NCBI RefSeq assembly: GCF_900104665.1
Contig: NZ_LT629969.1
Span: 839,716 to 903,715, forward strand
Origin: Traorella massiliensis
GTDB taxonomy: Bacteria > Bacillota_I > Bacilli_A > Erysipelotrichales > Erysipelotrichaceae
Direction of reading: 5' to 3'
DNA: 64,000 nt
Shown here: in pieces, positions 29,903-55,564 of the stretch
How positions within the stretch are numbered: the stretch's first letter is position 1
Layout of the letters: each line of letters starts with the position of its first letter
The notes under the pieces: model-generated
Told to the model about the DNA's origin: nothing
The model's database searches: none
What the model saw: the letters and a program-made list of their open reading frames with translations, nothing else
Program-made: the position numbers and the translations under genes

Positions 29903-31639
29903 GAGTAAGGACGAAAAGTAGTACTTAATCGAAAAGAAAAAGAAGAGATTTTAAATAAAAAAGTTAAATAAAAAAAATGAGCGCACTAAAAACAAGTGAA
30001 CAAATGAAATAAAATAAATTTAGCGAAAATCAGGTTTCATTTTTAATCCAAGCATCAAGATGAATATTGATGGCGGCAAAGATTGAAAAGAAAGCTGCTT
30101 TGGAGTCTTCACGAATTCTCATCTGATGAAGATGATAGTCATTGAGAATTCTATTATTGATTCTCTCAGTACAAGTTCTATTTTTGTATAGTTCTTTCCA
30201 TTTATCTGTTTTGTAAGGAACAGGGCCAAAAAGACGCATATCAAGCGAATCGTTAATGTAAACAGTTCTACCATATGGAGAAGGAGAACATGTATCTGCA
30301 TGTGGACAAGAATCAATCAATCCCATTTTTAGAGGACAACGGAATTTTCTTCTTTGCCTTTGATAGTCGTAGCCACAGTGATACATTTCAACACCACAAT
30401 CACAAATTGGTTTGCCGTTTTCACTAATAGAATCAAAGTGTTTATAAATATTTTTACCCAATTTACGTTGATTGAAATCAATGATTGGGATAATATTATG
30501 GTGACGCAGAAATTGGTAAACGGCAGAAGAATCGCTTGCGGAATCGAAACACATGAATTTTGGAGAGAGTTCAGGGTTAATATCAAGGAAACGAGCGGTA
30601 GAGGAAATGGAAGACAGAGCATCATGACGAGAAGCTTTCTCTAAATCGATAAAGACGGGAAGGTCAGTATGGATTAGAGGGTTATGATAAGAAATGTTAT
30701 AGAGAGTATAACCGAAGTAATACATTCCAAGATCACTGTCCCAGCCAAAATCTGCGTTTTTAGCGCTATAACGATGAGTGTTTAAAATATTGTCATCTTT
30801 AATGATTTGATGACCAAAAGGAGAAGCATGAATATGAAAAGCAGAACCATCACCAGAAAAGACAAGATTGTAGGAATCAATAAAGCCCATGTCATGAGAA
30901 GGAATGACAGCAATAGCGTTAAAAAGTAATTGAAGAGTATAAATCATACGATCACGGTCAAAAACAGAACCATCATGAGTGTAATTATCGAAAAGAGAAT
31001 AAGTATCATCATTAGAGAAGTTCATTAATTTTTCACCTTTCTTAGGTTTAGAAGAATTAGATTTATTCGTAAAAAGGCCTTTAGGAAGAAGATCGTTATG
31101 GTGAGAAAAAGAATGAGTGATACGGTTAATGAAATCGTAATGAGAAGAATGGTTAGGAACATTCCAAGAACCGATAAGATATTGAAGAAGCCTATCGTGA
31201 TGAACTTCATAACACCAATTTTTAAGAGAAGTAAAACCAAGATGAAGCATCAAAACGACAGAACGCAAATAGATAGCAGGATCGTTAGCGGGACGACCCA
31301 AAGGAGAATATAAAGGAAAGATGATATCGGCGACAAGGTCGACATCAAGTTTAGACAACTTATGAATAGCAGACTTAAAATTAGGAGAAGAAAGTCTGAA
31401 AAGATCAGAAGTTGAAAGAGAAGACTTTTCTGTCTTAAGAAATTCTTTGTAATCTTGAGACGAAGAGAAATAAATTAACATTGAAGATCACCACCTACTT
31501 ACTACAGAAAGGCGAGCAAAGCGAGCCCGCAACGAGGGCGATTTGTCAAGCAAAAAGTGAAAAAAGTTGGGGGGATTTCAAAAAAACGGCAATTAAAAAA
31601 GAGCGTAAACAAGCCGTTAAAATGTTTTCGACCACGCTC
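29903..31639 (-). mobile_element. IS element with DDE transposase, copy 1
   Basis: 1737 bp, with borders defined by the extent of near-identity to the copy at 39823-41559. The ends form an imperfect inverted repeat: GAGTAAGGACGAAAA at the left, and GAGCGTGGTCGAAAA read inward from the right (11 of 15 match). It is flanked by ATTTT on both sides, a five-base target duplication. It carries one transposase on the minus strand. Confidence 0.9.
30030..31481 (-). CDS. DDE transposase (copy 1)
   Basis: 483 residues. The N-terminal part (about 45-115) resembles the helical domain of IS5/IS1182-type transposases (RPANDPAIYLRSVVLMLHLGF). The catalytic part contains FSGDGSAFHIH and FDSASDSSAVYQFLRHHNIIPIIDFN, which look like DDE acidic positions, and ends with a zinc-like cluster of Cys and His near CDCGVEMYHCGYDYQ. 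The exact IS family is not certain. The protein is the same as that of the second copy 9920 bases to the right. Confidence 0.88.
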   Translation of the reverse strand: MLIYFSSSQDYKEFLKTEKSSLSTSDLFRLSSPNFKSAIHKLSKLDVDLVADIIFPLYSPLGRPANDPAIYLRSVVLMLHLGFTSLKNWCYEVHHDRLLQYLIGSWNVPNHSSHYDFINRITHSFSHHNDLLPKGLFTNKSNSSKPKKGEKLMNFSNDDTYSLFDNYTHDGSVFDRDRMIYTLQLLFNAIAVIPSHDMGFIDSYNLVFSGDGSAFHIHASPFGHQIIKDDNILNTHRYSAKNADFGWDSDLGMYYFGYTLYNISYHNPLIHTDLPVFIDLEKASRHDALSSISSTARFLDINPELSPKFMCFDSASDSSAVYQFLRHHNIIPIIDFNQRKLGKNIYKHFDSISENGKPICDCGVEMYHCGYDYQRQRRKFRCPLKMGLIDSCPHADTCSPSPYGRTVYINDSLDMRLFGPVPYKTDKWKELYKNRTCTERINNRILNDYHLHQMRIREDSKAAFFSIFAAINIHLDAWIKNET

Positions 31640-34082: not shown

Positions 34083-35624
34083 ATGGCAGATAAGATTATT
34101 GTTTTGGATTTTGGCTCACAGTATAACCAGCTGATTGCAAGACGTATTCGTGAGTTTGGGGTTTATAGTGAATTACATCCACATACGTTGACTTTGGAAC
34201 AGATCAAGAGTTTCGAAGATGTAAAGGGTATCGTGTTTAGTGGGGGACCAAATAGTGTATATGAGAAGGATGCATTTATGTGTGATCCAGCTATTTTTGA
34301 TAGCGGAATTCCTATTTTAGGAATTTGTTATGGAATGCAGATGACGCATTATATGAATGGCGGGCATGTAAAGGCTTGTGAAGCAAAGGAATATGGAAGA
34401 TGTGAGATTACGATTGATACGGATTCTTTGATTTTCAAGGGCTTGCCTAAGAAACAGACGGTATGGATGAGTCATGGTGATCAGGTAGATAAGCTTGCAG
34501 ATGGATTTGTAAAGGATGCTTCGAGTGATACTTGTTATTATGCTGCGACAAGCAATGAACAGAAGAAGATCTATACGTTGCAGTTTCATCCGGAGGTACG
34601 TCATTCAGAGTTTGGAAATGATATCTTGAGAAATTTCGTATTTGAAGTCTGCCATGCAAAGAATAATTGGTCGATGAGTTCATTTATCGAGATGCAGATT
34701 GCAAAGATTCGAGAACAAGTAGGCAATGATAAGGTGCTTTTAGGATTATCCGGTGGTGTCGATTCTTCAGTAGTTGCTGCTTTGTTACATAAGGCAATTG
34801 GTAATCAGCTGTATTGTATGTTTATCGATCATGGTCTTTTAAGAAAAGGTGAAGCGGATAGCGTCATGGAAGTATTTGGACGTGAAATGAACCTGAATCT
34901 TGTGAAGATTGATGCGAAAGATCGTTTCTTATCAAAATTAAAGGGTGTCAGTGATCCTGAACAAAAGCGTAAGATCATTGGAAATGAGTTTGTGTATACT
35001 TTTGATGAAGAAGTGAAGAAGCTTGTTGAAGGGGAAGATATTAAGTGGCTGGCTCAGGGTACTTTATATACGGATGTGATCGAGTCAGGGACAAAAACAG
35101 CTCAGACCATTAAATCACATCATAATGTTGGTGGCCTTCCAAAGGACATGCAGTTTCAGTTGATCGAACCTCTAAATACTTTATTTAAGGACGAAGTAAG
35201 AGCGCTAGGAAGCGAATTAGGGCTTCCAGATGAAATGGTATGGAGACAGCCTTTCCCAGGTCCAGGGCTTGGTATCCGCATCATTGGAGAGATTACAGAA
35301 GAAAAGCTGATGATGGTAAGAGAATCTGATGCTATTCTAAGAGAAGAAATCAAGAAAGCCGGATTAGATCGTGAGATCTGGCAGTATTTTACAGCACTTA
35401 CAAATATGAAGTCAGTAGGTGTCATGGGAGATCAGCGTACCTATGCTTATGCTGTAGCGATTCGTGCAGTAACATCGATTGATGGTATGACAGCGGACTG
35501 GGCAAGAATCCCATATGATGTCTTAACGATCGTATCAAATCGTATCGTAAATGAAGTTCCTCATGTGAATCGAGTAATGTTAGATATTACATCGAAGCCT
35601 CCTGGAACGATAGAGTTCGAGTAG
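34083..35624 (+). CDS. guaA: GMP synthase (glutamine-hydrolysing)
   Basis: 513 residues from ATG 34083, which has GGAGG at 34073-34077; the ATG at 34071 overlaps that site. The N-terminal class I amidotransferase has the nucleophile Cys in GICYGMQ and His/Glu in QFHPEVRH. The PP-loop is [13 protein letters not shown]. The C-terminal dimerisation domain ends PGTIEFE, and these last codons form an 11-bp integration-site core. It makes GMP from XMP. No riboswitch is seen upstream. Confidence 0.98.
35613..35623. repeat. Putative attachment core in the guaA 3' end
   Basis: GAGTTCGAGTA covers the last three sense codons and part of the stop. Near-identical 11-mers occur at 38878-38888 and 53056-53066. 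The guaA 3' end is an established integration hotspot for genomic islands. Confidence 0.7.
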
Positions 35625-35720
35625 TATATTTTGTTGTTTTGCAACCATCGATAGCGTGTTTTTCGTAAATTCCGTTATCGTGGGAAGAATGACTAGAGAA
35701 TAAAAAATACACAAAAAATT

Positions 35721-35757
35721 AGACCTTAGGGGCGTAAGCCTTTAAGGTCTTTTTTTG
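35721..35757 (+). terminator. Terminator downstream of guaA
   Basis: AGACCTTA (35721-35728)/TAAGGTCT (35743-35750) with inner pairs, then seven T. Confidence 0.9.
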
Positions 35758-36010
35758 CGAAAAACAATATGAAATCTGTCAGAAACCTTGTAAAATCAAT
35801 ACTTTTACGACTCCTGTAACGAAATCTGGTTACGGAATACAGGAAAAAATCCCGGTGTGACAGTCGTGTCAGAAGGCGTTACAAAAGTTGGGGGACGTTA
35901 ATGAGATTTGCAAAAAAGACGCTAACGGGATTTTTGAAATAACATCAAAAAACGTTAGAAACGCCTTTAAATAGGGTGTTTTTTAAATATTCTTAGAATA
36001 GTGCATAAAT
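35758..36010. other. Gene-free junction DNA
   Basis: No open frame is convincing. Short imperfect inverted repeats are visible (GTAAC-GAAATCTG-GTTAC near 35816). AAAAGTTGGGGG near 35885 also occurs in the right end of the IS copies (near 31563 and 41483), so part of this may be an old IS end. Evidence is weak. Confidence 0.35.
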
Positions 36011-36208
36011 CTAGGTGTTTTGTTCAATGATGGTGTCATTTGTTTCAGGTGAAATAATAGGCTCCTTTTGTAATACAATACTTTTGTCATCGTAAGTTGC
36101 CTTGAAATTATAATTACTATCAATTACTTTATTTGCTAATTCATAAAGTAAATATAATCCGAATGCAACAAGTACGCGGTTTGTTCTATCTTTTATAATA
36201 TCATTCAT
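36011..36208 (-). CDS. Small membrane-associated protein, unknown
   Basis: 65 residues with one hydrophobic segment (about 11-28, RVLVAFGLYLLYELANKVI) and a polar C-terminal tail. It starts 13 bases after the PIN-domain gene on the same strand, so it is probably its operon partner. No family is recognised. Confidence 0.6.
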   Translation of the reverse strand: MNDIIKDRTNRVLVAFGLYLLYELANKVIDSNYNFKATYDDKSIVLQKEPIISPETNDTIIEQNT

Positions 36209-36220
36209 AATGAGTCCTTT

Positions 36221-36916
36221 CTACGCAAAACTCTTACCGAATTTTACGATTTTTTTCCAATTACACAAAATACAAGCTCCTAATCCACCTACTGTAATGC
36301 CAATAGGTAAGCCATAGGATTCAATAAATGTTTTATCACGGGGTATTTCTTTAACAGCTTCTTTTTCAATGATTCTATCTTTGTAGATGATTTCTGGTTG
36401 TTCTTTGGTAGGTTTAGATTTAACACAATCACACATGTTCATATCACCATTTGCTCCAATGTAACAAACACTGACTTTGTTTCCGTAAAATGATTCTATA
36501 TCATTAAATTTATATGCATCCGAAGTAAGTCTTTGATCATTAGATATAAGTAGTTGTGGTATGTTTCTTCTTTTCTCTAAAATTACAGTTAAGATTTTAG
36601 GGTCAGCGAAGTTCTCTCCATTACTAGCGTCATTATTAAGGCGTTCAACTTTAAAAATATCATTGTTTGTTTTAACCAAATTCAAAGCTTCTATTGCACT
36701 AGTTTGTTTGTACTCATCAGACGATAATTGATGTTTTGCTAGTTCAGCCATTACACAATCAGGAATTTGTATTTTCTTATTAGATTCGAGAAGAACTGGA
36801 CGAACATTTTTAATGAAAAGTTCGAATCTTTGGATATACATCATCGTGCACGTATCAATCCATATTATTTGATTGTTTTGGATTTGTTTTGTAATGTAAT
36901 CTAGGTTTGTTGTCAT
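36221..36916 (-). CDS. Membrane-anchored PIN-domain protein
   Basis: 231 residues. Residues about 1-150 look like a PIN ribonuclease fold: WIDTCTMM (first Asp), CVMAELAKH (Glu), ENFADPKIL (Asp) and LLISNDQRLTSDA (Asp) give the four acidic positions in the right order. A charged linker leads to one hydrophobic helix (about 204-222, YGLPIGITVGGLGACILC) close to the C-terminus, so the nuclease would face the cytoplasm while tethered to the membrane. PIN domains are typical toxin RNases, but no small antitoxin gene precedes it. A large HTH protein is encoded divergently. Nuclease call is inference from motif order. Confidence 0.68.
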   Translation of the reverse strand: MTTNLDYITKQIQNNQIIWIDTCTMMYIQRFELFIKNVRPVLLESNKKIQIPDCVMAELAKHQLSSDEYKQTSAIEALNLVKTNNDIFKVERLNNDASNGENFADPKILTVILEKRRNIPQLLISNDQRLTSDAYKFNDIESFYGNKVSVCYIGANGDMNMCDCVKSKPTKEQPEIIYKDRIIEKEAVKEIPRDKTFIESYGLPIGITVGGLGACILCNWKKIVKFGKSFA

Positions 36917-36975
36917 ATTGATTACCTACCTTTCTGTTTTACATTTAGATTGTATAACAAATTCTTATTTGATAA

Positions 36976-37010
36976 AATTAAAGTGGGATAGAAAATATCC
37001 CACTTTAATT
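36976..37010. repeat. 15-bp perfect hairpin between divergent genes
   Basis: AATTAAAGTGGGATA (36976-36990), loop GAAAA, TATCCCACTTTAATT (36996-37010), followed by T on the plus strand and by TTTT on the minus strand. It sits between the PIN gene and the divergent HTH gene. Confidence 0.85.
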
Positions 37011-37055
37011 TTTGAGTCTATTTAAATGTGATATTCTGACTGCGAGGTGATTTAA

Positions 37056-38513
37056 ATGAGAAAAGAAAATGGTTTTAAACTAGAAGAAATTAAATATGTT
37101 CCGTATATACCTGATAAATATGAATTTAAAAAATACTTTGATTCAATGAGGAAGATTGATTGTGAAGATGGTGTTTCAAAAAATAAGAGGATTAGACATA
37201 CATATACATATAAAGAACTGTCTGAAATAACTGGTGCTCCAGAAGAGTCAATTCGTAAGTTGATAAACAAGACACAACCTACTTCAAATCGAGATTTAAT
37301 TATTTCTTTATGTATTGCTATAAAATTAGACTTGGATAGCACAAATCTCGCATTACGCAAATACGGAATGTCAGAATTATATGACGGAAGCTACGGTGAT
37401 TCTATGACACGAGATTATTTATTGATGGAAATTTTAGATAAATATAATGGTGATATGACTTTACATGAAGTTAATAATTATTTAGTCGCCTCGGGATTTT
37501 CACCTTTGCATATACCTATTATAAAGAAACAAATATCAACATTTAGAAAACAGGATGAATATGAAGTGATTAATATTAGAGTATTCCCTTTAATAAATGA
37601 TTATGATTTTTGCTTATCAGAAAAATTTAATATTAAAAATTATGACTGTAGTGCAGAAATGTTAATAAAAAACCTAAATACTGGAGAAAAGTATATAATA
37701 ACAGGATCTAAAGATAAAAAATTTCTTATACATTCTTTATCAGGTTCGACTAGAATTTTACCAATAGAAAAATTTGAACACTATAAAAACCTAAAGACAG
37801 TTCTTTCATTTCTCGTTATGAAAATTGATAAAGAAATATATAAACTACAAATAATACAAAATGATACTAAAAATTACGGTAATCGTACAACAGCAAAATT
37901 TGAAAATGGTAGAATAGTTTTTATTTCAGAGAGTTTTAATAACAAGGTTCCAGAGATTCCACTTTATATACTCGTTGAAGATGATTGCAAAGATACTAAA
38001 ATATTAATTTCAAAGAAAAGTATGTTTATGTCAAAATTATATGACGATATTCGATATCGTGAAGAATATCATTGCGAAAAAATTAAGGCTATATGGGAAT
38101 ATAATAGTGTTGATGATATTAAAGATGATGCTATATATAAAAATCATGAAGTAATACAAAATTCTATAATTAAAATATGCAATGACTTAACTTCGAATAT
38201 CTCAAAATTGAAAAATGAAATTAAGTATAAAAAAGAGTTTATTTCATCAAGTATTTTAATAGATGGAGAACCTGATGAATTCTATTTAATGTGTCGAGCG
38301 CTAAAATTAGTAAAAGAATTTTCATTAAAAAAAGATGGTGAGTTTTATTACACGACAAGAAATAAAATTAACTATAGATATAATGATAAAATTTATATAA
38401 TAACGAGAGAAGATGTTAAAACTGCATGTGAACTCGGAATGAAAAACGCAAATGATATATGTTCAGTTAAAGAAAGAATTGGCTCTTTAGAAGCATTATA
38501 TGAAGAAATGTAG
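37056..38513 (+). CDS. Large HTH-containing protein of unknown function
   Basis: 485 residues. Residues about 48-105 read like a Cro/C1-type helix-turn-helix (YTYKELSEITGAPEESIRKLINKTQPTS then a second helix set). The remaining roughly 380 residues match no family that I recognise: mixed alpha/beta, Lys-rich, with a possible coiled coil at about 360-395. The ribosome site GAGGTGA is close to the start. Base composition is very AT-rich compared with guaA. The gene diverges from the PIN gene across a region with a 15-bp hairpin, which suggests joint control. Confidence 0.7.
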   Translation: MRKENGFKLEEIKYVPYIPDKYEFKKYFDSMRKIDCEDGVSKNKRIRHTYTYKELSEITGAPEESIRKLINKTQPTSNRDLIISLCIAIKLDLDSTNLALRKYGMSELYDGSYGDSMTRDYLLMEILDKYNGDMTLHEVNNYLVASGFSPLHIPIIKKQISTFRKQDEYEVINIRVFPLINDYDFCLSEKFNIKNYDCSAEMLIKNLNTGEKYIITGSKDKKFLIHSLSGSTRILPIEKFEHYKNLKTVLSFLVMKIDKEIYKLQIIQNDTKNYGNRTTAKFENGRIVFISESFNNKVPEIPLYILVEDDCKDTKILISKKSMFMSKLYDDIRYREEYHCEKIKAIWEYNSVDDIKDDAIYKNHEVIQNSIIKICNDLTSNISKLKNEIKYKKEFISSSILIDGEPDEFYLMCRALKLVKEFSLKKDGEFYYTTRNKINYRYNDKIYIITREDVKTACELGMKNANDICSVKERIGSLEALYEEM

Positions 38514-38701
38514 TTAATATAGCTACTTTTTTTAATTTTAGTTAATTTGAATTTTCGATAATTCCATATTTTTATATAATGTATAAATCATTTGAAACAA
38601 TAAGTATACGAGGTAAAATTCAATTATTTAAATTTAATGATATTCTGTGTAGAATATAAAAATCTATGAGTTCGAATTAGATAGGATAAGCTATGGTAGC
38701 T

Positions 38702-38877: not shown

Positions 38878-38888
38878 GAGTTCGAATA
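38878..38888. repeat. Putative island attachment core (middle copy)
   Basis: GAGTTCGAATA, one base different from the guaA 3' end core and identical to the copy at 53056-53066. Confidence 0.65.
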
Positions 38889-39822: not shown

Positions 39823-41559
39823 GAGTAAGGACGAAAAGTAGTACTTAATCGAAAAGAAAAAGAAGAGATTTTAAATAAAAAAGTTAAATAAAAAAAATGA
39901 GCGCACTAAAAACAAGTGCACAAATGAAATAAAATAAATTTAGCGAAAATCAGGTTTCATTTTTAATCCAAGCATCAAGATGAATATTGATGGCGGCAAA
40001 GATTGAAAAGAAAGCTGCTTTGGAGTCTTCACGAATTCTCATCTGATGAAGATGATAGTCATTGAGAATTCTATTATTGATTCTCTCAGTACAAGTTCTA
40101 TTTTTGTATAGTTCTTTCCATTTATCTGTTTTGTAAGGAACAGGGCCAAAAAGACGCATATCAAGCGAATCGTTAATGTAAACAGTTCTACCATATGGAG
40201 AAGGAGAACATGTATCTGCATGTGGACAAGAATCAATCAATCCCATTTTTAGAGGACAACGGAATTTTCTTCTTTGCCTTTGATAGTCGTAGCCACAGTG
40301 ATACATTTCAACACCACAATCACAAATTGGTTTGCCGTTTTCACTAATAGAATCAAAGTGTTTATAAATATTTTTACCCAATTTACGTTGATTGAAATCA
40401 ATGATTGGGATAATATTATGGTGACGCAGAAATTGGTAAACGGCAGAAGAATCGCTTGCGGAATCGAAACACATGAATTTTGGAGAGAGTTCAGGGTTAA
40501 TATCAAGGAAACGAGCGGTAGAGGAAATGGAAGACAGAGCATCATGACGAGAAGCTTTCTCTAAATCGATAAAGACGGGAAGGTCAGTATGGATTAGAGG
40601 GTTATGATAAGAAATGTTATAGAGAGTATAACCGAAGTAATACATTCCAAGATCACTGTCCCAACCAAAATCTGCGTTTTTAGCGCTATAACGATGAGTG
40701 TTTAAAATATTGTCATCTTTAATGATTTGATGACCAAAAGGAGAAGCATGAATATGAAAAGCAGAACCATCACCAGAAAAGACAAGATTGTAGGAATCAA
40801 TAAAGCCCATGTCATGAGAAGGAATGACAGCAATAGCGTTAAAAAGTAATTGAAGAGTATAAATCATACGATCACGGTCAAAAACAGAACCATCATGAGT
40901 GTAATTATCGAAAAGAGAATAAGTATCATCATTAGAGAAGTTCATTAATTTTTCACCTTTCTTAGGTTTAGAAGAATTAGATTTATTCGTAAAAAGGCCT
41001 TTAGGAAGAAGATCGTTATGGTGAGAAAAAGAATGAGTGATACGGTTAATGAAATCGTAATGAGAAGAATGGTTAGGAACATTCCAAGAACCGATAAGAT
41101 ATTGAAGAAGCCTATCGTGATGAACTTCATAACACCAATTTTTAAGAGAAGTAAAACCAAGATGAAGCATCAAAACGACAGAACGCAAATAGATAGCAGG
41201 ATCGTTAGCGGGACGACCCAAAGGAGAATATAAAGGAAAGATGATATCGGCGACAAGGTCGACATCAAGTTTAGACAACTTATGAATAGCAGACTTAAAA
41301 TTAGGAGAAGAAAGTCTGAAAAGATCAGAAGTTGAAAGAGAAGACTTTTCTGTCTTAAGAAATTCTTTGTAATCTTGAGACGAAGAGAAATAAATTAACA
41401 TTGAAAATCACCACCTACTTACTACAGAAAGGCGAGCAAAGCGAGCCCGCAACGAGGGCGATTTGTCAAGCAAAAAGTGAAAAAAGTTGGGGGGATTTCA
41501 AAAAAACGGCAATTAAAAAAGAGCGTAAACAAGCCGTTAAAATGTTTTCGACCACGCTC
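39823..41559 (-). mobile_element. IS element with DDE transposase, copy 2
   Basis: It matches copy 1 at 29903-31639 over 1737 bp, with only three differences noticed by eye (for example CCCAACC here for CCCAGCC at 30751-30757), and lies in the same orientation. The flanks are ATAGA on the left and TAATA on the right, so no target duplication is seen. Confidence 0.9.
39950..41401 (-). CDS. DDE transposase (copy 2)
   Basis: 483 residues, the same protein as that of copy 1; the one base change seen in the reading frame is silent. Intact, so either copy could supply transposase. The near-identity indicates very recent duplication within this genome. Its neighbours are a broken HTH gene on one side and a small gene of unknown function on the other. 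Confidence 0.88.
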   Translation of the reverse strand: MLIYFSSSQDYKEFLKTEKSSLSTSDLFRLSSPNFKSAIHKLSKLDVDLVADIIFPLYSPLGRPANDPAIYLRSVVLMLHLGFTSLKNWCYEVHHDRLLQYLIGSWNVPNHSSHYDFINRITHSFSHHNDLLPKGLFTNKSNSSKPKKGEKLMNFSNDDTYSLFDNYTHDGSVFDRDRMIYTLQLLFNAIAVIPSHDMGFIDSYNLVFSGDGSAFHIHASPFGHQIIKDDNILNTHRYSAKNADFGWDSDLGMYYFGYTLYNISYHNPLIHTDLPVFIDLEKASRHDALSSISSTARFLDINPELSPKFMCFDSASDSSAVYQFLRHHNIIPIIDFNQRKLGKNIYKHFDSISENGKPICDCGVEMYHCGYDYQRQRRKFRCPLKMGLIDSCPHADTCSPSPYGRTVYINDSLDMRLFGPVPYKTDKWKELYKNRTCTERINNRILNDYHLHQMRIREDSKAAFFSIFAAINIHLDAWIKNET

Positions 41560-42390: not shown

Positions 42391-43608
42391 ATGAACAAAA
42401 CAATATGTGAATTATTTGCCGGTGTAGGAGGATTTAGATTAGGTTTTGAAAGAGCCGATTCTGGATGGAAAACTACATGGTTTTCACAATGGGAACCAGG
42501 GGCGAGAACACAATGGGCAAATCAGTGCTATGTGCAACATTTTGGAGATTCACCAGATATAAATGGGGAATTTCATACTTGTGAAGATATTTCTACTGTA
42601 GATAAAAATGCTATTCCAGATCATACCCTTTTGGTTGGTGGATTTCCTTGCCAAGATTATTCAGTAGCTCAATCGTTATCTAGTTCAAAAGGTATCGAAG
42701 GAAAAAAAGGAGTTCTATGGTGGCAAATTAGAGATACCATCGAAGCAAAGAGACCAGCATTTTGTATTTTTGAAAATGTTGATAGATTATTAAAATCTCC
42801 AGCAAAGCAACGTGGGAGAGATTTTGGTATCATCTTAAGTTGTTTGAATGCCTTAGGATATTCTGCTGAGTGGAGAGTAATAAATGCTGCTGAATATGGT
42901 GCGGCACAACGCAGAAGAAGAGTATTTATTTTTGCATATAGAAATGATACGGTTTATGCTGATTCAGTAAAAGAAATGGACGAATTATCACTGATCAATT
43001 TAGATGGATTCATGGCGAAATCATTTCCGATTGAACAAGTAGAAAATTGTTTTGAAGGAACTTTGATGAATGATTTATTAGAAATGACAGATAAATTCTC
43101 ATTTGATTTTAAGTCCGCTGGATTGATGAGAAACGGGGAAATATATACAAATAATGTCGTTCCAGTAATGGAGACACCTATACTATTGGGAGATATCTTA
43201 CAGTCTAATGTTGACGAAAGTTTTTATATAACAAACGAAAAAATGAGCAAATGGACTTATTTGAAAGGTGCGAAAAAAATAAATCGTGTATCTAAGACAG
43301 GGCATGAGTATGTCTTTTCAGAGGGTCCTATTGCTTTTCCGGATTCATGGGATAAACCAGGTAGAACCATGCTTACTAGCGAATCTACTTTGAATAGAAG
43401 CACACATGTCGTTTCAGATCCTGGAACAGGAAGATTGAGAACTTTGACTCCAATCGAAGCAGAACGTTTGCAAGGTTTTGATGACGATTGGACTAATAGT
43501 GGAATGCCTAATAGGATGAGATTCTTTTGCATGGGAAATGCTTTGGTAGTGCCAATGATCACAAGAATGGCCAGAGTTTTGGATAAAATAATCGATAAAG
43601 AACAATGA
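42391..43608 (+). CDS. DNA (cytosine-5) methyltransferase
   Basis: 405 residues. Motif I is ELFAGVGGFRLGFE, the catalytic motif IV is GGFPCQDYSVA with C87, motif VI is FENVDRLL, motif VIII is QRRRRVFIFA, and motif X is FFCMGNALVVPM. It methylates C5 of cytosine. Linkage to a Sau3AI-type nuclease suggests that it protects GATC as GATmC, which is inference. The ribosome site is AGGAGG. A GATC and a CTATC/GATAG inverted repeat lie in its leader (42313-42329). Confidence 0.95.
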   Translation: MNKTICELFAGVGGFRLGFERADSGWKTTWFSQWEPGARTQWANQCYVQHFGDSPDINGEFHTCEDISTVDKNAIPDHTLLVGGFPCQDYSVAQSLSSSKGIEGKKGVLWWQIRDTIEAKRPAFCIFENVDRLLKSPAKQRGRDFGIILSCLNALGYSAEWRVINAAEYGAAQRRRRVFIFAYRNDTVYADSVKEMDELSLINLDGFMAKSFPIEQVENCFEGTLMNDLLEMTDKFSFDFKSAGLMRNGEIYTNNVVPVMETPILLGDILQSNVDESFYITNEKMSKWTYLKGAKKINRVSKTGHEYVFSEGPIAFPDSWDKPGRTMLTSESTLNRSTHVVSDPGTGRLRTLTPIEAERLQGFDDDWTNSGMPNRMRFFCMGNALVVPMITRMARVLDKIIDKEQ

Positions 43609-43662
43609 TCTTATGTCTTAGGCATAAGATTTTTGTGCATATAGGGAAAGAGGGTGATAGAT

Positions 43663-45177
43663 ATGAAGTTATTTGATTATGATGATACAGATATCAATAG
43701 TATTTATTCATATGCAAAAAAATTGGAAGGAATGACCTTTCATGAGGTATTGGATGAATATGAAAGAAGTCCAATAAAAAGTTATGGAGGGAAAATATAT
43801 GATGCATATGCCAATTTTGAAAATATGGTAATAAGAGAAAAAGCAGTAGAATATGGTTTTGGAGCATCTTTGAATGACAAAGCGAAAGGTCAATTGGGTA
43901 ATTTTATAGAAAAATACTATTTTGGTTATGATCCAAATGGTAATCAAGAAGCGGATTTTAATAAGATAGGATTAGAATTAAAACAAACACCTATTGATAA
44001 GACGAAAAAAGGTGAATATAGAGCAGGAGAAAGACTGTCCATAACAAATATTTCTTACAATGAACCTGTAGAAGAAGATTTCTATAAAAGTCATGTATGG
44101 AAAAAAATTAAATGTATCCTTTTGATTCATTATTTGAGGGACAAGTCCATTGAACGTTTGGATTATGTTATTAAATTTGTAAATTTATTTAGTCCGCCTA
44201 AGGATGATCTTAAGATCATCATCGATGACTATAATCAGATCAATGAAAAAATCAAACAAGGAAAAGCTCATGAATTAAGCGAAGGAGATACGATGTATCT
44301 GGGAGCTTGTACGAAAGGTGCAACTGCCAAAAAAAGCATGAGGCCGCAATATTATGGTGATCATACTTTAGCTAAGAAAAGAAATTATTGTTTCAAAGTA
44401 TCTTACATGAATTATGTTTTGAAAAATTATATCCTTCAAAACAATGTGCCGTGTGAATCTATCATAAAAGGAGATATTAAAACAAATTTCCAAGAGCATG
44501 TTGTATCTTTGATAAATAAGCACATTGGCATGACAGATAAAGAATTATGTGAAATGTATGATCGCCCTTATAACAATAACAAAGCACAATGGAATGATCT
44601 TGCATTCCGAATGTTAGGAATCAAAGGTAATCATGCTGCAGAATTTCAAAAAGCAAATATCGTAGTTAAGACCATACGAATAGAAGAAAATGGAAAGAAT
44701 AGAGAAAACATGTCTTTTGCACCATTCAAATTCAAAGAACTTGTGCAAGAAGAATGGGAAGATTCTACAGTATTTAATTATTTTGATACAACGCAATTCT
44801 TATTTGTCGTTTTTCAAAAAGTTAGTGATGCTTATGTACTACAGAAAGCAAAATTATGGCACATGCCTTACTATGATTTGAATGAGATTGTGAAAAGTGA
44901 ATGGCAAAATTATAAAAATATAATCAAAAATGGAGTGATTTTCAAAAAGGTTAAAAATCTAGATGGTGAATTAGAAGTTAAGAATAACTTACCTGGAATG
45001 AAAGATACTGAAATCATACATATACGTCCTCATGCCCAGAAATCCGCTTATAAGTTAAATGATGGATTTTTAAAAGGCAATGTTGAAAGAGATGCAGATG
45101 AATTGCCAAATGGAGAATGGATGACAAAACAGAGTTTTTGGTTGAACAAGCAATATATATTAAAACAATTAAAGTAA
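43663..45177 (+). CDS. Sau3AI/MutH-family type II restriction endonuclease
   Basis: 504 residues from ATG 43663; a GTG at 43654 overlaps the GAGGG ribosome site. The MutH-like nuclease motif D-x6-E-x-K is seen as D98, E105, K107 in ADFNKIGLELKQ. A second MutH-like half with LSEGDTMYLGACTKG follows, the two-domain plan of Sau3AI (about 490 residues). Sau3AI cuts before GATC, so this enzyme probably does the same. It lies between its methyltransferase and a Vsr gene. Confidence 0.85.
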   Translation: MKLFDYDDTDINSIYSYAKKLEGMTFHEVLDEYERSPIKSYGGKIYDAYANFENMVIREKAVEYGFGASLNDKAKGQLGNFIEKYYFGYDPNGNQEADFNKIGLELKQTPIDKTKKGEYRAGERLSITNISYNEPVEEDFYKSHVWKKIKCILLIHYLRDKSIERLDYVIKFVNLFSPPKDDLKIIIDDYNQINEKIKQGKAHELSEGDTMYLGACTKGATAKKSMRPQYYGDHTLAKKRNYCFKVSYMNYVLKNYILQNNVPCESIIKGDIKTNFQEHVVSLINKHIGMTDKELCEMYDRPYNNNKAQWNDLAFRMLGIKGNHAAEFQKANIVVKTIRIEENGKNRENMSFAPFKFKELVQEEWEDSTVFNYFDTTQFLFVVFQKVSDAYVLQKAKLWHMPYYDLNEIVKSEWQNYKNIIKNGVIFKKVKNLDGELEVKNNLPGMKDTEIIHIRPHAQKSAYKLNDGFLKGNVERDADELPNGEWMTKQSFWLNKQYILKQLK

Positions 45178-45187
45178 GGTGATGTAT

Positions 45188-45622
45188 GTGAAGCATCAAA
45201 ATTTAAAAACTACTCCGGAAGTTTCAAAGCGTATGAAGGCGTTGAGCCATAAAAAAAGTAAGGTTGAATCTGTGCTTGCAAAAGCTTTATGGCATAAAGG
45301 GTATCGTTATCGATTGAATTATAAAAAATTACCTGGGACACCTGATATAGCATTACCAAAATATAAGATAGCAATATTTGTTGACGGCGAATTTTGGCAC
45401 GGGAAAGATTTCGAAAAAACGAAAGATAAACTTAAGAACAATAAAGATTATTGGATTGAAAAGATTGAGGAGAACATTCAAAGAGATCTAAGAAATGACA
45501 GTTTACTTCATCAAATGGGTTGGACACCATTACACTTTTGGAGTAATGATGTAAAAAGATATTTACCATACTGTATAGATGAGATAGAAGAAAACATTTA
45601 TGAAATATATATCAGAGAATAG
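45188..45622 (+). CDS. vsr: Very short patch repair endonuclease Vsr
   Basis: 144 residues from GTG 45188, which best fits the TAAGG ribosome site; ATG 45182 and GTG 45179 lie too close to it. The Vsr fold is clear: SKVESVLAKALWHKGYRYR, LPGTPDIALPKYKIAIFVDGEFWHG with the catalytic Asp, and the final LHQMGWTPLHFWSNDV. Vsr nicks T:G mismatches made when 5-methylcytosine deaminates, and so is a fitting companion of the adjacent C5 methyltransferase. Start is uncertain by a few codons. Confidence 0.9.
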   Translation: MKHQNLKTTPEVSKRMKALSHKKSKVESVLAKALWHKGYRYRLNYKKLPGTPDIALPKYKIAIFVDGEFWHGKDFEKTKDKLKNNKDYWIEKIEENIQRDLRNDSLLHQMGWTPLHFWSNDVKRYLPYCIDEIEENIYEIYIRE

Positions 45623-48973: not shown

Positions 48974-50896
48974 ATGATTATATCTGAATTAAAAATATAT
49001 AATTTCCGTAGATTTAAATCTAAAGATGGTCTTCCAGGATTGCATATTACTTTTCATAAAGGATTAAATGCTTTGATAGGAGAAAATGATTCAGGAAAAA
49101 CTGCAGTAATTGATGCACTCAAGCTAGTTTTGTTAACTCAAAGTAATGAATATATTAGGCCTATGGATGATAATTTTTATAAGTCTACCCATGGAGAGGA
49201 GTGTAGCGAATTTAAAATTGATTGTAGAATTACGAATTTTACTCAAAATGAAGCAAAAAACTTTATCGAGTATTTAAAATTTGAAAAGAATGGCGAAAAA
49301 GTGGAATACATACTTGAACTTCATTATCGTGCATGGAAAGAAGGCCATAAAATATTTCAGGAATTACGGGTAGGGGATGTAGATGACAGTGTTTCAATTG
49401 ATGGAAAAGCAAGAGATTTGTTGAAAGCGGTCTACTTAAAACCACTTAGGGACGCTAAACGTGAAATGAGTTCTGGACGAGGTTCCAGAATTTCACAAAT
49501 ACTTCTTAGCCACCCCGTTTTCAAAGGCAAAAAAGAACATGCTATCAAAGATATTTTTCAAGAAGCGAATACGCAGATAGAGGAATATTTCACGAATGAT
49601 CCTGAGGGAAAGTGTATTCTTCAAACAATCTGTAATAATTTAGAATTGTTTAATGACAGAGGACAAGCCAGTAACGCAGAGTTTAAGACATCAGATATTC
49701 AATTAAAGTCTATACTTGAATCTCTGTCCTTGAATGCTCCAGAGATAAATCCAGGTTTGGGAGAATTAAATCTGTTATTTATTGCAGCAGAACTATTACT
49801 GCTTAAGGATGATAACGATGGTGGCATGAAATTGGCTCTTATTGAGGAATTGGAAGCACATCTTCATCCACAGGCTCAACTTCGATTAATCAATTATCTT
49901 CAAAACGAATATAACGAGAATGATGTTCAGATTATTATATCTACACATAGTCCAATACTTGCTTCAAAAATCAATCTTAAAAATTTGATATTAATGAAAG
50001 ATGGTGCTGGTTATGATTTGGCTGAGGGAAAAACAGGGCTTCAAAAAGGGGATTATTTGTTTCTTCAGCGTTTTCTCGATTCAACAAAAGCTAACTTATT
50101 TTTTGCTAAGGGCATTATAATGGTAGAAGGTGACGCTGAGAATATACTTATTCCTGTAATTGCTGATATTTTAGGTTATCCGTTAGAAAAATACGGGATA
50201 TCCATTGTAAATGTTGGAAGTACTGCATTCCTTAGATACAGTAGGATTATGGTAAGAGAAGATGGACAAACAATTAATATTCCAGTTTCTGTGATTACAG
50301 ATTGTGATGTAAAACCATATGATGTTGACCCAGTAACAAAGAGAAAAACGTTCAATGAAAAAATAATTGAATCTGAGCAAAACGAAAAAGAGAAAAATGA
50401 AAAATACACCGAAGGATCAGTCCACGGATTTACTTCACCTAGATGGACGTTGGAATATTGTATTGCTATGAGTAGTCTTTCAGAAGACTTCCATAAAGCG
50501 GTTCATTACGGAAAGAAAATTTTGAATGCACGAGAACACATTTCACTTACTGATAAAAAAATCACTGAAGCAAACAAAATAGTTGAAGAAGAAAAAAAGC
50601 AGTGGCATGATTTATCTCAGGCAGAAAAAGCATATGAAATTTACAATTTAATGCTCAATGGGGATGGGAAAAGTAGCTTAAAAGCAATCGTTTCTCAATG
50701 TTTAGCATCAATCTTACGTTGGAGAATATCTGTTATTCCAAGCGAACTATCGCAAGAGAAGATGTTTGATCTTGATTTGTATAGTTTAAAGAAAGATGAG
50801 GAAAAGAGATTAGAGTTGAAAACTAAAATTGAAGAAGATCAATTCTTAAGCTATATTGTGAAAGCTATCAAATATGCTGCAGGAGAAAGAGATTAA
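48974..50896 (+). CDS. OLD-family ATPase/TOPRIM nuclease (GajA-like)
   Basis: 640 residues. Walker A is GENDSGKT (residues 36-43); the signature region is near PGLGELNLLFIAAELLLL, Walker B is LIEELEAHLHP, and the H-loop is IISTHSPILAS. A TOPRIM domain follows with E385 in VEGDAEN and the acidic pair in VITDCDVKP. The order ATPase then TOPRIM defines OLD nucleases. Adjacent to a UvrD-like helicase it forms the gene pair of Gabija anti-phage systems. It is longer than the classic GajA of about 580 residues, so a related class 2 OLD system is possible. Confidence 0.85.
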   Translation: MIISELKIYNFRRFKSKDGLPGLHITFHKGLNALIGENDSGKTAVIDALKLVLLTQSNEYIRPMDDNFYKSTHGEECSEFKIDCRITNFTQNEAKNFIEYLKFEKNGEKVEYILELHYRAWKEGHKIFQELRVGDVDDSVSIDGKARDLLKAVYLKPLRDAKREMSSGRGSRISQILLSHPVFKGKKEHAIKDIFQEANTQIEEYFTNDPEGKCILQTICNNLELFNDRGQASNAEFKTSDIQLKSILESLSLNAPEINPGLGELNLLFIAAELLLLKDDNDGGMKLALIEELEAHLHPQAQLRLINYLQNEYNENDVQIIISTHSPILASKINLKNLILMKDGAGYDLAEGKTGLQKGDYLFLQRFLDSTKANLFFAKGIIMVEGDAENILIPVIADILGYPLEKYGISIVNVGSTAFLRYSRIMVREDGQTINIPVSVITDCDVKPYDVDPVTKRKTFNEKIIESEQNEKEKNEKYTEGSVHGFTSPRWTLEYCIAMSSLSEDFHKAVHYGKKILNAREHISLTDKKITEANKIVEEEKKQWHDLSQAEKAYEIYNLMLNGDGKSSLKAIVSQCLASILRWRISVIPSELSQEKMFDLDLYSLKKDEEKRLELKTKIEEDQFLSYIVKAIKYAAGERD

Positions 50897-50912
50897 AAAG
50901 GAGAATTCTACT

Positions 50913-52826
50913 ATGGAATTGGAAATTTCTGATAAAGATATTGAATCAATTGAGAATCTTCTTTTGCCAGAAGGAGCACACTTTCAAGAAGATGCAAGAA
51001 ATGTTATTCGTTGTTGGCATTCCACCGATATATCTGCTTGCCCGGGAAGTGGTAAAACAACTGTCCTTCTTGCAAAATTGAAACTATTGAGTGATCGGAT
51101 GCCATTTGAAAAAGGTGCAGGAATTTGTGTTCTATCTCACACTAATGTTGCTGTAGAGGAAATAAAAAAACGTCTATCAAGTTATGCTGATAAACTTTTT
51201 AGCTATCCAAATTATATCGGAACGATTCAATCATTTGTTGATAAATTTGTTACTATGCCATATTTGAGAAATATTTCTGGTCGTAATGTACAAGTGGTTG
51301 ACAATCATACTTATGCGCAGCATATGCTAGACAGGATGCAAAACATCAAGAAGTATAATGCTCTTGATTATTTAATAAAGAATAGATTTAAAACTGGTGG
51401 TCAATTTAATAATCTACTCGAATATATACAGGAATTTTATATACGTGATGATGGAGCTCTTTGTGTAGGTAAGCAAAAAAATGCGTTAGCTCTTGGAGAT
51501 AAACCTTCTACTAAACAGTACAAAGACTTAATTATTGATCTTTTAAAATACGAAGGTATAATACGATACAAAGATGCATATTTATATGCTAATCAGGCTG
51601 TAAGTGTTCTATCTGAAACGTATCAAGATTTATTTTCATTACGTTTCCAGTATGTCTTTATTGATGAATATCAAGATTGTGATATTATTCAACGACAAGT
51701 CATCTCTGCAATATTTAACCCACAAAAATGTACATTAATCAAAATAGGAGATCCAGATCAAGCTATTTATAATTCTTCAAAAGTCAAAGTGTCAGATTGG
51801 GTGCCACAGGACGGTTTTTTGCCGATACAAACTTCTTGTAGATATAGCCAGGAAATTGCAGATGTGATATGTAAATTAAAGAAATCCGATGAAACTATCA
51901 TTACATCTGTAGGCAATACAGGATTAAAGCCAATATTACTTGTCTTTGATCCTGATAAAATTGACAGAGTAATTAGCGAATTCATAGGTGTTTTAGAGAG
52001 CCATGGTCTTTATGATAATAAAGCTATATATAAAGCTATTGGTGCTATTAGAAATAAAGACTCCCCAGGACTTAAAATAGGAAGCTATTGGACAGAATTT
52101 GATAGTTCCGTTAAAAATCAAGCAAAACACAAGTATTGGAAATTAATAGATGATATTGCTACAAATTTATTAGAGGGTAATTTGTATAAAGTAGAATATA
52201 CTGTTCGTGAAATTTTATGTTGCATATTTCATTATATAAAAATTAAATCTCCAAGTTCGGGCAGAGAATATTCTGTGTATACAATAAGAAGAAAGCTTAC
52301 TAATGAATATAGAGAAGAATATAGCCAGTGGATTTATGAATTGTCTAGGATTCAGAATTTTGATAGGGAGAATATTGACTCTCTGATGCGTCAAAATATA
52401 AATAAAATTTTGAAAGTTAAGAATCCAGATATAGATGATTTTTTTGCTTTGCTACCAGAGGCTTTTCTTGATGAAAATGCCGCTGGAAATCAGGTGCAAA
52501 AGTCGGAAAAAAACATATATATTGATCCAATAAGAGGACGTAGAATAGAATTTGATACTATTCATGGAGTAAAAGGTGAAACACATGATGCAACTCTTTA
52601 TCTTGAAACCGACAGACAAGGATCATCTGACTTAAATAGAATTCTTCCATATTTTGGTGTAGGCAAATGCGGTGATTCGGAGTTGTTTGAGTATAGTCGA
52701 AAGCTTGCTTATGTTGGCATGAGTAGAGCAAAGAAACTGTTATGTGTTGCAATGCAAGCTAAAACTTATGAAAAAAGTCAAGAAGTATTCAAGGATGATT
52801 GGGAAATTATTGATTTGAGAAAATAA
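50913..52826 (+). CDS. UvrD/PcrA-like helicase (GajB-like)
   Basis: 637 residues from ATG 50913, preceded by AAAAGGAG, 16 bases after the OLD gene; a farther in-frame start at 50874 lies within that gene. Motif I is CPGSGKT with K48, motif II is YVFIDEYQDCD, motif III GDPDQAIYN, and motifs V-VI are TIHGVKGETHDA and AYVGMSRAKKLL. It is a superfamily 1A helicase. In Gabija, GajB joins GajA and responds to nucleic acid ends made by the nuclease. Length is above the classic GajB of about 490. Confidence 0.85.
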   Translation: MELEISDKDIESIENLLLPEGAHFQEDARNVIRCWHSTDISACPGSGKTTVLLAKLKLLSDRMPFEKGAGICVLSHTNVAVEEIKKRLSSYADKLFSYPNYIGTIQSFVDKFVTMPYLRNISGRNVQVVDNHTYAQHMLDRMQNIKKYNALDYLIKNRFKTGGQFNNLLEYIQEFYIRDDGALCVGKQKNALALGDKPSTKQYKDLIIDLLKYEGIIRYKDAYLYANQAVSVLSETYQDLFSLRFQYVFIDEYQDCDIIQRQVISAIFNPQKCTLIKIGDPDQAIYNSSKVKVSDWVPQDGFLPIQTSCRYSQEIADVICKLKKSDETIITSVGNTGLKPILLVFDPDKIDRVISEFIGVLESHGLYDNKAIYKAIGAIRNKDSPGLKIGSYWTEFDSSVKNQAKHKYWKLIDDIATNLLEGNLYKVEYTVREILCCIFHYIKIKSPSSGREYSVYTIRRKLTNEYREEYSQWIYELSRIQNFDRENIDSLMRQNINKILKVKNPDIDDFFALLPEAFLDENAAGNQVQKSEKNIYIDPIRGRRIEFDTIHGVKGETHDATLYLETDRQGSSDLNRILPYFGVGKCGDSELFEYSRKLAYVGMSRAKKLLCVAMQAKTYEKSQEVFKDDWEIIDLRK

Positions 52827-53055: not shown

Positions 53056-53066
53056 GAGTTCGAATA
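53056..53066. repeat. Putative island attachment core (right copy)
   Basis: GAGTTCGAATA, identical to 38878-38888 and one base from the guaA 3' end (35613-35623). Confidence 0.65.
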
Positions 53067-53398: not shown

Positions 53399-53713
53399 AT
53401 GCAAAAAGCGATAAAAGAAATCATAGAGTTTAATAAAGAAAGAGAGTGGGATCAATTTCATTCACCTGAAAATTTAGCAAAATCTATTGTCATAGAAGCA
53501 GTAGAATTATTGGAATGCTTTCAATGGAATAATAACTATGATAAAGAAAAAGTGTGTGAAGAATTAGCCGATGTAGTGAATTATTGCATTGTAATGGCTA
53601 ATCAATTGCAAGTGGATTTAGAAACAATAGTGTTAGATAAATTAGAGAAAAATCGTCAAAAATATCCAGTCGAAAAAGCAAAAGGAAATTCAAAGAAGTA
53701 TAACGAATTATGA
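53399..53713 (+). CDS. MazG-like nucleotide pyrophosphohydrolase
   Basis: 104 residues. The MazG metal-binding helices are visible: the first Glu cluster in IVIEAVELLECFQW and the second in EELADVVNYCI (E-x-x-E and E-x-x-D pattern). It would hydrolyse nucleoside triphosphates to monophosphates. The ribosome site is GAGGGAGG. It overlaps the following gene by four bases (ATGA). Association with a DUF2075 helicase gene recurs in Firmicutes and suggests a defence or stress role. Confidence 0.85.
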   Translation: MQKAIKEIIEFNKEREWDQFHSPENLAKSIVIEAVELLECFQWNNNYDKEKVCEELADVVNYCIVMANQLQVDLETIVLDKLEKNRQKYPVEKAKGNSKKYNEL

Positions 53714-55564
53714 TTGTATACCAAGAAACAAAAAAGAAATTTTTAAATGATGTTAGACTGGATTTGATTGAAGAGAAAATTGAAAGAAAAGTACTTGAAA
53801 GATTACACAAAAAAACTGCACATAATGAATTTTTATCTTGGATGAATTCGATGCAATACATGTATAAAGTTTTAGAGGAAAAAAGTATTCCAGATGATAG
53901 TGTAATTGCAATAGAGTATAGGATACCTAATTCAAATAAGCGAGTAGACTTCATAATTAGCGGTGAGGATGGATTAGGACGAGAAAGTGCGGTTATTATA
54001 GAACTGAAACAGTGGCAAAAATTAGAAAAAGTGGACTCCAAAGAAGCGGTTGTCAAAACTCATTTACAAGGAAGAATGGTGGAGACAACGCACCCTTCTT
54101 ATCAGGCTTGGTTTTACGTAAGTATGATCGAAGACTATAATGAAGATGTTAGAAAATATAAAATCAATTTACAACCATGCGCTTATTTACACAATTATAG
54201 ACTTCAAGAGCATGATGACTTAACAGATTCATGTTATGAATATTATATTGATAAGGCACCAGTATTCACCAGAGGAGATACAGATAAATTAGCAAAGTTT
54301 ATTTCAAAATATATAAAAAAAAGGGAATCCTGATGTACTTTATCATATCGAACAAGGAAGAATTGTTCCTAGTAAATCTTTACAAGATAGTTTATCATCT
54401 ATGTTAAAAGGTAATAGAGAATTTACATTGATTGATGAACAAAAAGTAGTGTTTGAAAGAGCGTTAGAAATTGTAAGAAATCAAAACAAGAAAAAAGTAT
54501 ATATAATTCATGGAGGTCCGGGTACTGGAAAAACGGTTTTAGCAATAAATATGCTTGTTGCAATATTGAACATGAATCAAAATGTCATGTATGTAACAAA
54601 AAATTCTGCACCGAGAGAAGTTTATCGCAAAAAACTAACTGAAGGAAAATATCGAAAAGCATATATAGATAATCTATTTAAAGGATCAGGAGCTTTTACA
54701 GAAGCTATATCAGATGATTTTGATTGTTTAATTGTCGATGAGGCCCATCGGTTGAACGAAAAATCTGGAATGTTTCAAAATTTAGGGGAAAACCAAATAA
54801 AAGAAATTATAAATGCAGCGAAAACAAATATATTCTTTGTTGATGATTTTCAAATCGTAACTACTAAAGATATCGGATGTACGAATGAAATAAAAAAATG
54901 GTGTCGTTTCTTTGATGCTCAAGTATATGAAGATACACTGATATCACAATTTAGATGCAATGGTAGTGACTCTTATCTTTCATGGATAGATAATGTCTTG
55001 GAAATCAATCCAGAAGCAACAGATGACTTTGATTGTGATTATGATATTCGCATTTGTGATACTCCAGATGAAGTAAGACAATTAATTTTAGAGAAAAATA
55101 AAATTAATAATAAATCGAGAATGGTTGCTGGTTATTGTTGGAAATGGATTAAAGAAGGAAAAAATGATAGTCATGTTCATGATATACAAATTGGAGATTT
55201 TGGAATGTCATGGAATCTTGGATCTTCTTCAACATGGGCCATCGATCCTGAATCTGTAAATGAAATAGGCTGTATTCACACATGTCAAGGGCTTGAGTTT
55301 GATTATGTTGGCGTTATTATTGGTGAAGATATGCGATATGACAATGGTATCATTACTGATTTTATGAAAAGGGCTAGTACAGATCAATCTATTAAAGGCT
55401 TGAAAGGTTTATATAAGAAAGATAAAGATAAAGCTAAAGATATTGCAGATAAAATTATAAAAAATACATATAGAACATTATTAACAAGAGGTCAAAAAGG
55501 ATGTTATATCTATTGTGTTGATGAGAATTTAAAATTGTATTTAAAAGAAAGATTAATGAAATAA
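53710..55564 (+). pseudogene. DUF2075 (Schlafen-like) helicase with N-terminal nuclease-like domain, frameshifted
   Basis: Two frames make up one gene. The first (53710-54333, 207 codons) holds a domain with RVDFIISGEDG and AVIIELKQW, a D...ExK nuclease-like arrangement, and ends at TGA just after a run of eight A (54315-54322). The second is open without a break from the A run to 55564 and encodes LYHIEQGRIVPSKSLQDS, Walker A GGPGTGKT, Walker B LIVDEAHRL and the DUF2075 helicase core. Losing one A would join them into about 617 residues, the normal DUF2075 size. It could be a real inactivation, a phase-variable tract or a sequencing error. Confidence 0.82.

Follow-up and report, generated by a model that had tools for sequence, protein, structure and literature searches.

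Where a gene for a predicted PIN nuclease stands back to back with a gene for a large HTH protein, at the 3' end of guaA, do the two belong to one conserved unit, and what would such a unit do? The case arises at positions 36011-38513 of the stretch of Traorella massiliensis DNA analysed here (64,000 nucleotides, hereafter the window). A first-pass annotation had described a membrane-bound PIN protein, a small membrane protein and a 485-residue HTH protein there as a compact unit, and had suggested that they constitute an undescribed system.

The three open reading frames are present exactly as described. P0001 and P0002 are separated by 12 nt and are read as one operon, from which P0003 diverges. 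The features of the locus are as follows.

35613..35623, + strand: left att-like core GAGTTCGAGTA at the guaA 3' end
35948..38540, no strand: cassette body common to the window and Holdemania filiformis (two blastn pieces, 35948-35988 and 35979-38538)
36011..36208, - strand: P0001, 65 aa, with one predicted, marginally hydrophobic helix (aa ~12-30)
36221..36916, - strand: P0002, 231-aa PIN nuclease
36260..36310, - strand: hydrophobic, Gly-rich C-terminal tail of P0002 (aa ~203-219), predicted membrane anchor
36974..37012, no strand: perfect 17-bp palindrome with a 5-nt centre, candidate operator
37056..38513, + strand: P0003, 485-aa HTH protein
37194..37520, + strand: Xre-like HTH module of P0003 (aa ~47-155), placed by alignment with relatives
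37764..38051, + strand: middle region of P0003 (aa ~237-332), common to HTH-TPR proteins of one genus (g8)
38668..38678, + strand: att-like core GAGTTCGAATT
38878..38888, + strand: right att-like core GAGTTCGAATA

The three proteins and the palindrome between them

The assignment of P0002 to the PIN nucleases rests on a match to Pfam PIN_4 (E=6.2e-5; 23.7 bits against a curated cut-off of 21.9) and on an AlphaFold2 model with a core pLDDT of ~90. The model is closer to Utp24 and SMG6 (VIA Z ~10) than to VapC (Z ~6-7), and it matches AF0591 with a Foldseek probability of 1.0. Four acidic residues, D21, E58, D105 and D127, are invariant in an alignment of six PIN relatives, and their places after strands and before helices suggest that they form the PIN active site. 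As modelled, P0002 thus has a PIN fold in which none of the conserved acidic residues is missing; it presumably acts as an RNase on an RNA target. PDB sequence searches, whether with single sequences or with profiles, returned nothing for P0002 or P0003.

Membrane helices had been assigned to both P0002 and P0001, and here the prediction is marginal. The P0002 tail has a KD19 value of 1.55 and an approximate insertion energy of 1.2 kcal/mol on a rough scale, and the P0001 helix has values of 1.32 and 1.6 kcal/mol on the same rough scale. What stands is the tail itself: all six PIN relatives have a similar short hydrophobic stretch with basic residues after it, which makes it a conserved feature. 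For a cytoplasmic enzyme held by a single-pass anchor, basic residues after such marginal tails make an unusual topology. Attachment of P0002 to the membrane through its tail is thus a prediction. P0001 matched no antitoxin profile.

P0003 shows its HTH character only by way of its relatives. Its sole Pfam match, to Sigma70_r4 at E=0.25, is below threshold. The relatives do match HTH_26 (the Streptococcus salivarius homologue at E=0.005, L031 at E=2.9e-4, and L074 above the cut-off), and they align with the corresponding part of P0003, which points to an Xre-like HTH module, in line with the annotation. An AlphaFold2 model built from a two-sequence alignment had a pLDDT of 34.5, and for this reason we claim no fold for the C-terminal part.

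The same module is common to HTH proteins that adjoin kinases, are fused to Macro domains or are metalloprotease-like. One copy is fused to a Macro domain and adjoins a VWA-type protein (L031 1378-2406), and other copies are divergent to membrane kinases (L003-L005). Genus g8, in the same family, encodes HTH proteins of 660-690 aa with TPR-like tails (L071 4959-7019, L073 4875-6857 and L074 3546-5615), a receptor-like architecture without PIN. This family has two collinear blocks in common with P0003, the HTH module and the middle region, in the same order; it differs in its TPR-like C-terminus and in having no PIN neighbour in the stretches read.

Between P0002 and P0003 lie 139 bp, which hold a perfect 17-bp inverted repeat with a 5-nt centre. 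A palindrome of this quality was reached in 0 of 1000 shuffles. In H. filiformis its arms are 94% complementary, so that the stem is kept while the centre is altered. Because the genes diverge on both sides, the palindrome is no terminator for an upstream gene and is read instead as an operator, a candidate that is probably bound by P0003. An Rfam scan of the cassette found no RNA element. An inverted repeat upstream in S. salivarius was dropped as an operator; T-rich sequence follows it, and it may be a terminator.

Recurrence of the cassette and of its parts

The whole cassette recurs in H. filiformis, right after guaA, with 87.5% nucleotide identity over 2560 bp, whereas guaA itself is only 72% identical. 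This difference implies that the cassette moved between species or entered the guaA site twice. Between the window and H. filiformis, dN/dS is 0.062 for the PIN gene (dS 0.76) and 0.18 for the HTH gene (dS 0.41), with dS saturated for guaA; both cassette genes are under purifying selection. A P0001 homologue is also present there and conserved in frame, and it has no ATG, GTG or TTG at the expected start (L013, next to position 6696).

A more distant copy lies on the S. salivarius megaplasmid NZ_CP015284.1. The PIN and HTH proteins were used as queries independently of each other, and their matches (E=9e-13 and E=5e-7, respectively) fell in neighbouring genes. The order is an HTH gene (549 aa), a PIN gene (221 aa) and a gene for a 60-aa hydrophobic protein, all co-oriented and spanning the record origin. 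P0003 aligns over its full length with the HTH protein at 29% identity. The 60-aa protein has no detectable similarity to P0001 (shuffle p=0.64), and conservation of the P0001 sequence in S. salivarius, Butyrivibrio or Clostridiales RUG714 was rejected (shuffle p 0.25-0.64). Divergence of the PIN and HTH genes, a feature of the original description, holds for the window and H. filiformis and not for the co-oriented S. salivarius genes. Given the recurrence in other genomes and the low dN/dS of both genes (0.06 and 0.18), the cassette is not a chance arrangement.

A further genome (G091) has matches to P0003 residues 37-292 and 290-483 at the ends of two different contigs, pieces that we left unjoined. 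Divergent from the first piece is a gene for a 58-aa P0001-like protein (shuffle p 0.0034), a probable homologue. No PIN relative was found in this genome, in which the region is incomplete, both HTH pieces being at contig ends. Two genes away from the pair of P0003-type and small genes is an Abi_2 gene (E=1e-33; L075 1886-2917).

The PIN partner is likewise found in other company. Three PIN proteins with the tail adjoin partners other than a P0003-type HTH protein, and two of these partners are of the MerR/excisionase type: a MerR-type protein in Butyrivibrio WCD3002 and an excisionase-type HTH protein on Butyrivibrio pCY186 (MerR_1 at E=2e-6 and HTH_17 at E=3e-9). The third, in Clostridiales RUG714, has a divergent protein of 224-258 aa and a small hydrophobic protein; the former has no reliable Pfam match and is an HTH protein by eye only. 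Related PIN domains in solitary long proteins (family f8) were set aside as another architecture. Scans of viral contigs and phage records gave no homologue of the cassette proteins.

Co-occurrence of the two genes elsewhere had been proposed as a check on the system, with homologues occurring independently of each other as grounds against it. Both were found in part. The pair is together in H. filiformis and S. salivarius; G091 has the HTH protein and the small gene without PIN, the PIN-tail proteins occur with other partners, and the HTH-TPR proteins occur without PIN. Thus, the PIN-tail proteins are not tied to P0003, and at the family level the pairing is not absolute, while this particular HTH-PIN pair is seen again in two lineages that are far apart.

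The guaA site and its defence-rich surroundings

In Gram-positive bacteria, mobile DNA is known to integrate at the guaA 3' end (PMC4844618). Cores of the form GAGTTCGARTW lie in the window at 35613, 38668, 38878 and 53056, four where 0.09 are expected by chance. Cores do flank the unit, as the first-pass annotation had it, although three rather than two are near it. Between the guaA core and the part common to H. filiformis is a stretch at 35626-35947 (320 nt). In its site of insertion, the 3' end of guaA, and in the layout of short direct-repeat cores around it (35613 and 38878), the cassette resembles the Tn5801-like guaA islands (PMC4844618). It differs from them in that no integrase, tet(M) or conjugation genes are seen in it. 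By eye, no tyrosine integrase was found among open reading frames of at least 40 aa (33-42 kb) or at least 100 aa (rest of the window).

In one congener (G618; L046 2031-6776), matching cores at the guaA 3' end enclose another insert, of 4.7 kb. A second guaA-like gene (429 aa), next to a gene of 398 aa, is present in congeners (L049 4495-6995, and partly L047). The segment of guaA and cassette is flanked by two transposase genes of the same 483-aa sequence and the same orientation (30030-31481 and 39950-41401), a composite-transposon-like layout.

Between the cores at 38878 and 53056, and thus outside the cassette, lie a transposase, a type II restriction-modification cluster (42391-45622: C5 methylase, restriction enzyme and Vsr nickase) and, just before the core at 53056, Gabija (48974-52826: GajA, PADLOC E=2e-211, and GajB, E=7e-174). 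Since an att core and a transposase intervene, we regard Gabija and the restriction-modification genes as neighbours and not partners of the cassette. Directly after the 53056 core come a MazG-like protein, a 207-aa protein and a Schlafen group 3 helicase (53399-55564); a protein of the 207-aa type is fused to such a helicase elsewhere (L072).

The compact unit of the original description is conserved and located on mobile DNA beside defence genes: it is a mobile unit of ~3 kb in a gut commensal. Its position as a tandem neighbour in a defence-rich island supports a conflict role.

Proposed function and its alternatives

We favour, tentatively and at slightly under an even chance, a reading of the three genes as a mobile regulator/effector cassette whose mode of action resembles that of toxin-antitoxin or abortive-infection modules. 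The repression by P0003, the RNase activity, its target, the trigger and the biological role are inferred as follows. P0003 would bind the palindrome between the divergent genes through its Xre-like HTH, keeping the PIN operon low, and it may also keep the PIN protein inactive. Its long C-terminal part would sense a trigger, perhaps phage infection or loss of the element, upon which control would be lifted. Once released, the PIN protein would cleave RNA and growth would stop; its C-terminal tail would hold it at the membrane, and P0001, the small membrane protein, would modulate it. The sensor-effector arrangement that had been thought conceivable is plausible in its regulator/effector part; its sensor part is conjectural, the P0003 model having a pLDDT of 34.5.

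Of the alternatives, a plain type II toxin-antitoxin pair is rather unlikely yet fares best. P0003 could itself be the antitoxin of the PIN protein, and on this account it would be an oversized one that directly blocks the toxin and regulates its own expression; membrane attachment would be incidental, and the main role would be to keep the mobile element. PIN-Xre and PIN-MerR pairs have been predicted as toxin-antitoxin modules (Makarova et al. 2009, PMC2701414), and like these and VapBC the cassette places a PIN gene beside a DNA-binding regulator, is mobile and has an operator-like palindrome. The S. salivarius order, with HTH upstream of a co-oriented PIN gene, the plasmid and island locations, and the swapping of DNA-binding partners among PIN-tail relatives also fit. 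On the other side, the partner is 485-549 aa long, the PIN protein has a hydrophobic tail and a fold closer to Utp24/SMG6 than to VapC, a third gene for a small predicted membrane protein is present, transcription in the window is divergent, and G091 has the HTH and small genes without PIN. Two features that define VapBC are absent: no small (~60-100 aa) DNA-binding antitoxin stands beside the PIN gene, its only DNA-binding neighbour being the 485-aa protein, and there is no bicistronic operon, the genes being divergent in the window and H. filiformis and co-oriented with a third gene in S. salivarius. For these two reasons we do not file the cassette as VapBC, in keeping with the first-pass annotation, although it may work like VapBC.

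A second alternative, which we consider quite unlikely, is that the cassette is a regulatory module belonging to a mobile element. The membrane RNase would then not be toxic; under the control of the HTH protein it would process specific transcripts, such as those made by the element itself or by superinfecting elements. Lysogeny-type control has a similar layout of palindrome and divergent promoters, and related PIN domains occur in the solitary proteins of family f8. Moreover, the HTH relatives that adjoin kinases or are fused to Macro and metalloprotease-like domains indicate that this HTH is not dedicated to toxins. Mobility, the defence-rich island and the PIN fold, however, favour a conflict role, and no other element genes are left in the cassette. 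That the cassette is a remnant, without function today, of what a now decayed guaA element once carried is very unlikely: there is no integrase open reading frame seen near it, several stray att cores surround it and the H. filiformis small gene lacks a normal start, but the frames are intact in two species, dN/dS is 0.062 and 0.18, and the cassette is 87.5% identical between species whose guaA genes are 72% identical.

Returning to the regulator/effector cassette, its kind is known and its variant is new, given that PIN-based defence systems have been validated and PIN-Xre and PIN-MerR toxin-antitoxin modules predicted (PMC13092281; PMC2701414). The validated systems are two, DefensePredictor DS-5 and DS-3 (PMC13092281), and resemble the cassette in that a PIN ribonuclease is found without a classical antitoxin, alone in DS-3 and with a partner protein in DS-5. 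The DS-5 partner is described as having DUF5830/AcrIF4-like domains, and P0003 has no Pfam match of that kind. PADLOC (E<=0.01) gave no family for P0001, P0002 or P0003, in agreement with a candidate undescribed system, and only weak matches for their relatives (for example, CARF_PIN at E=5.6e-4 for a Butyrivibrio PIN protein); the DefensePredictor and toxin-antitoxin literature searched held no description of the cassette. Related PIN domains also occur fused to a kinase with a CFI-box C-terminus, adjoining VWA and PP2C genes, on the Lysinibacillus plasmid pFN9B (L051 4761-9105) and in Fusobacterium (L012 5923-10028); these loci are unlike the cassette in the kinase fusion, the VWA and phosphatase neighbours and the lack of a P0003-type HTH protein.

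A bolder reading, which we hold doubtful, is that the cassette represents an undescribed immune or addiction class, in which a membrane-tethered PIN RNase and a small membrane partner are placed under a large Xre-type sensor. This class would be part of a broader network, in which kinases, Macro-domain proteins and proteases are also driven by this HTH module.

Predicted membrane-tethered PIN RNases under a large HTH regulator lie outside the defence and family libraries searched here. Self-contained within ~3 kb and repeated on a Streptococcus megaplasmid, the cassette offers a way to learn whether PIN nucleases serve as membrane-localised abortive-infection effectors, and it draws attention to an Xre-type HTH module that turns up again next to several effectors of the conflict type.
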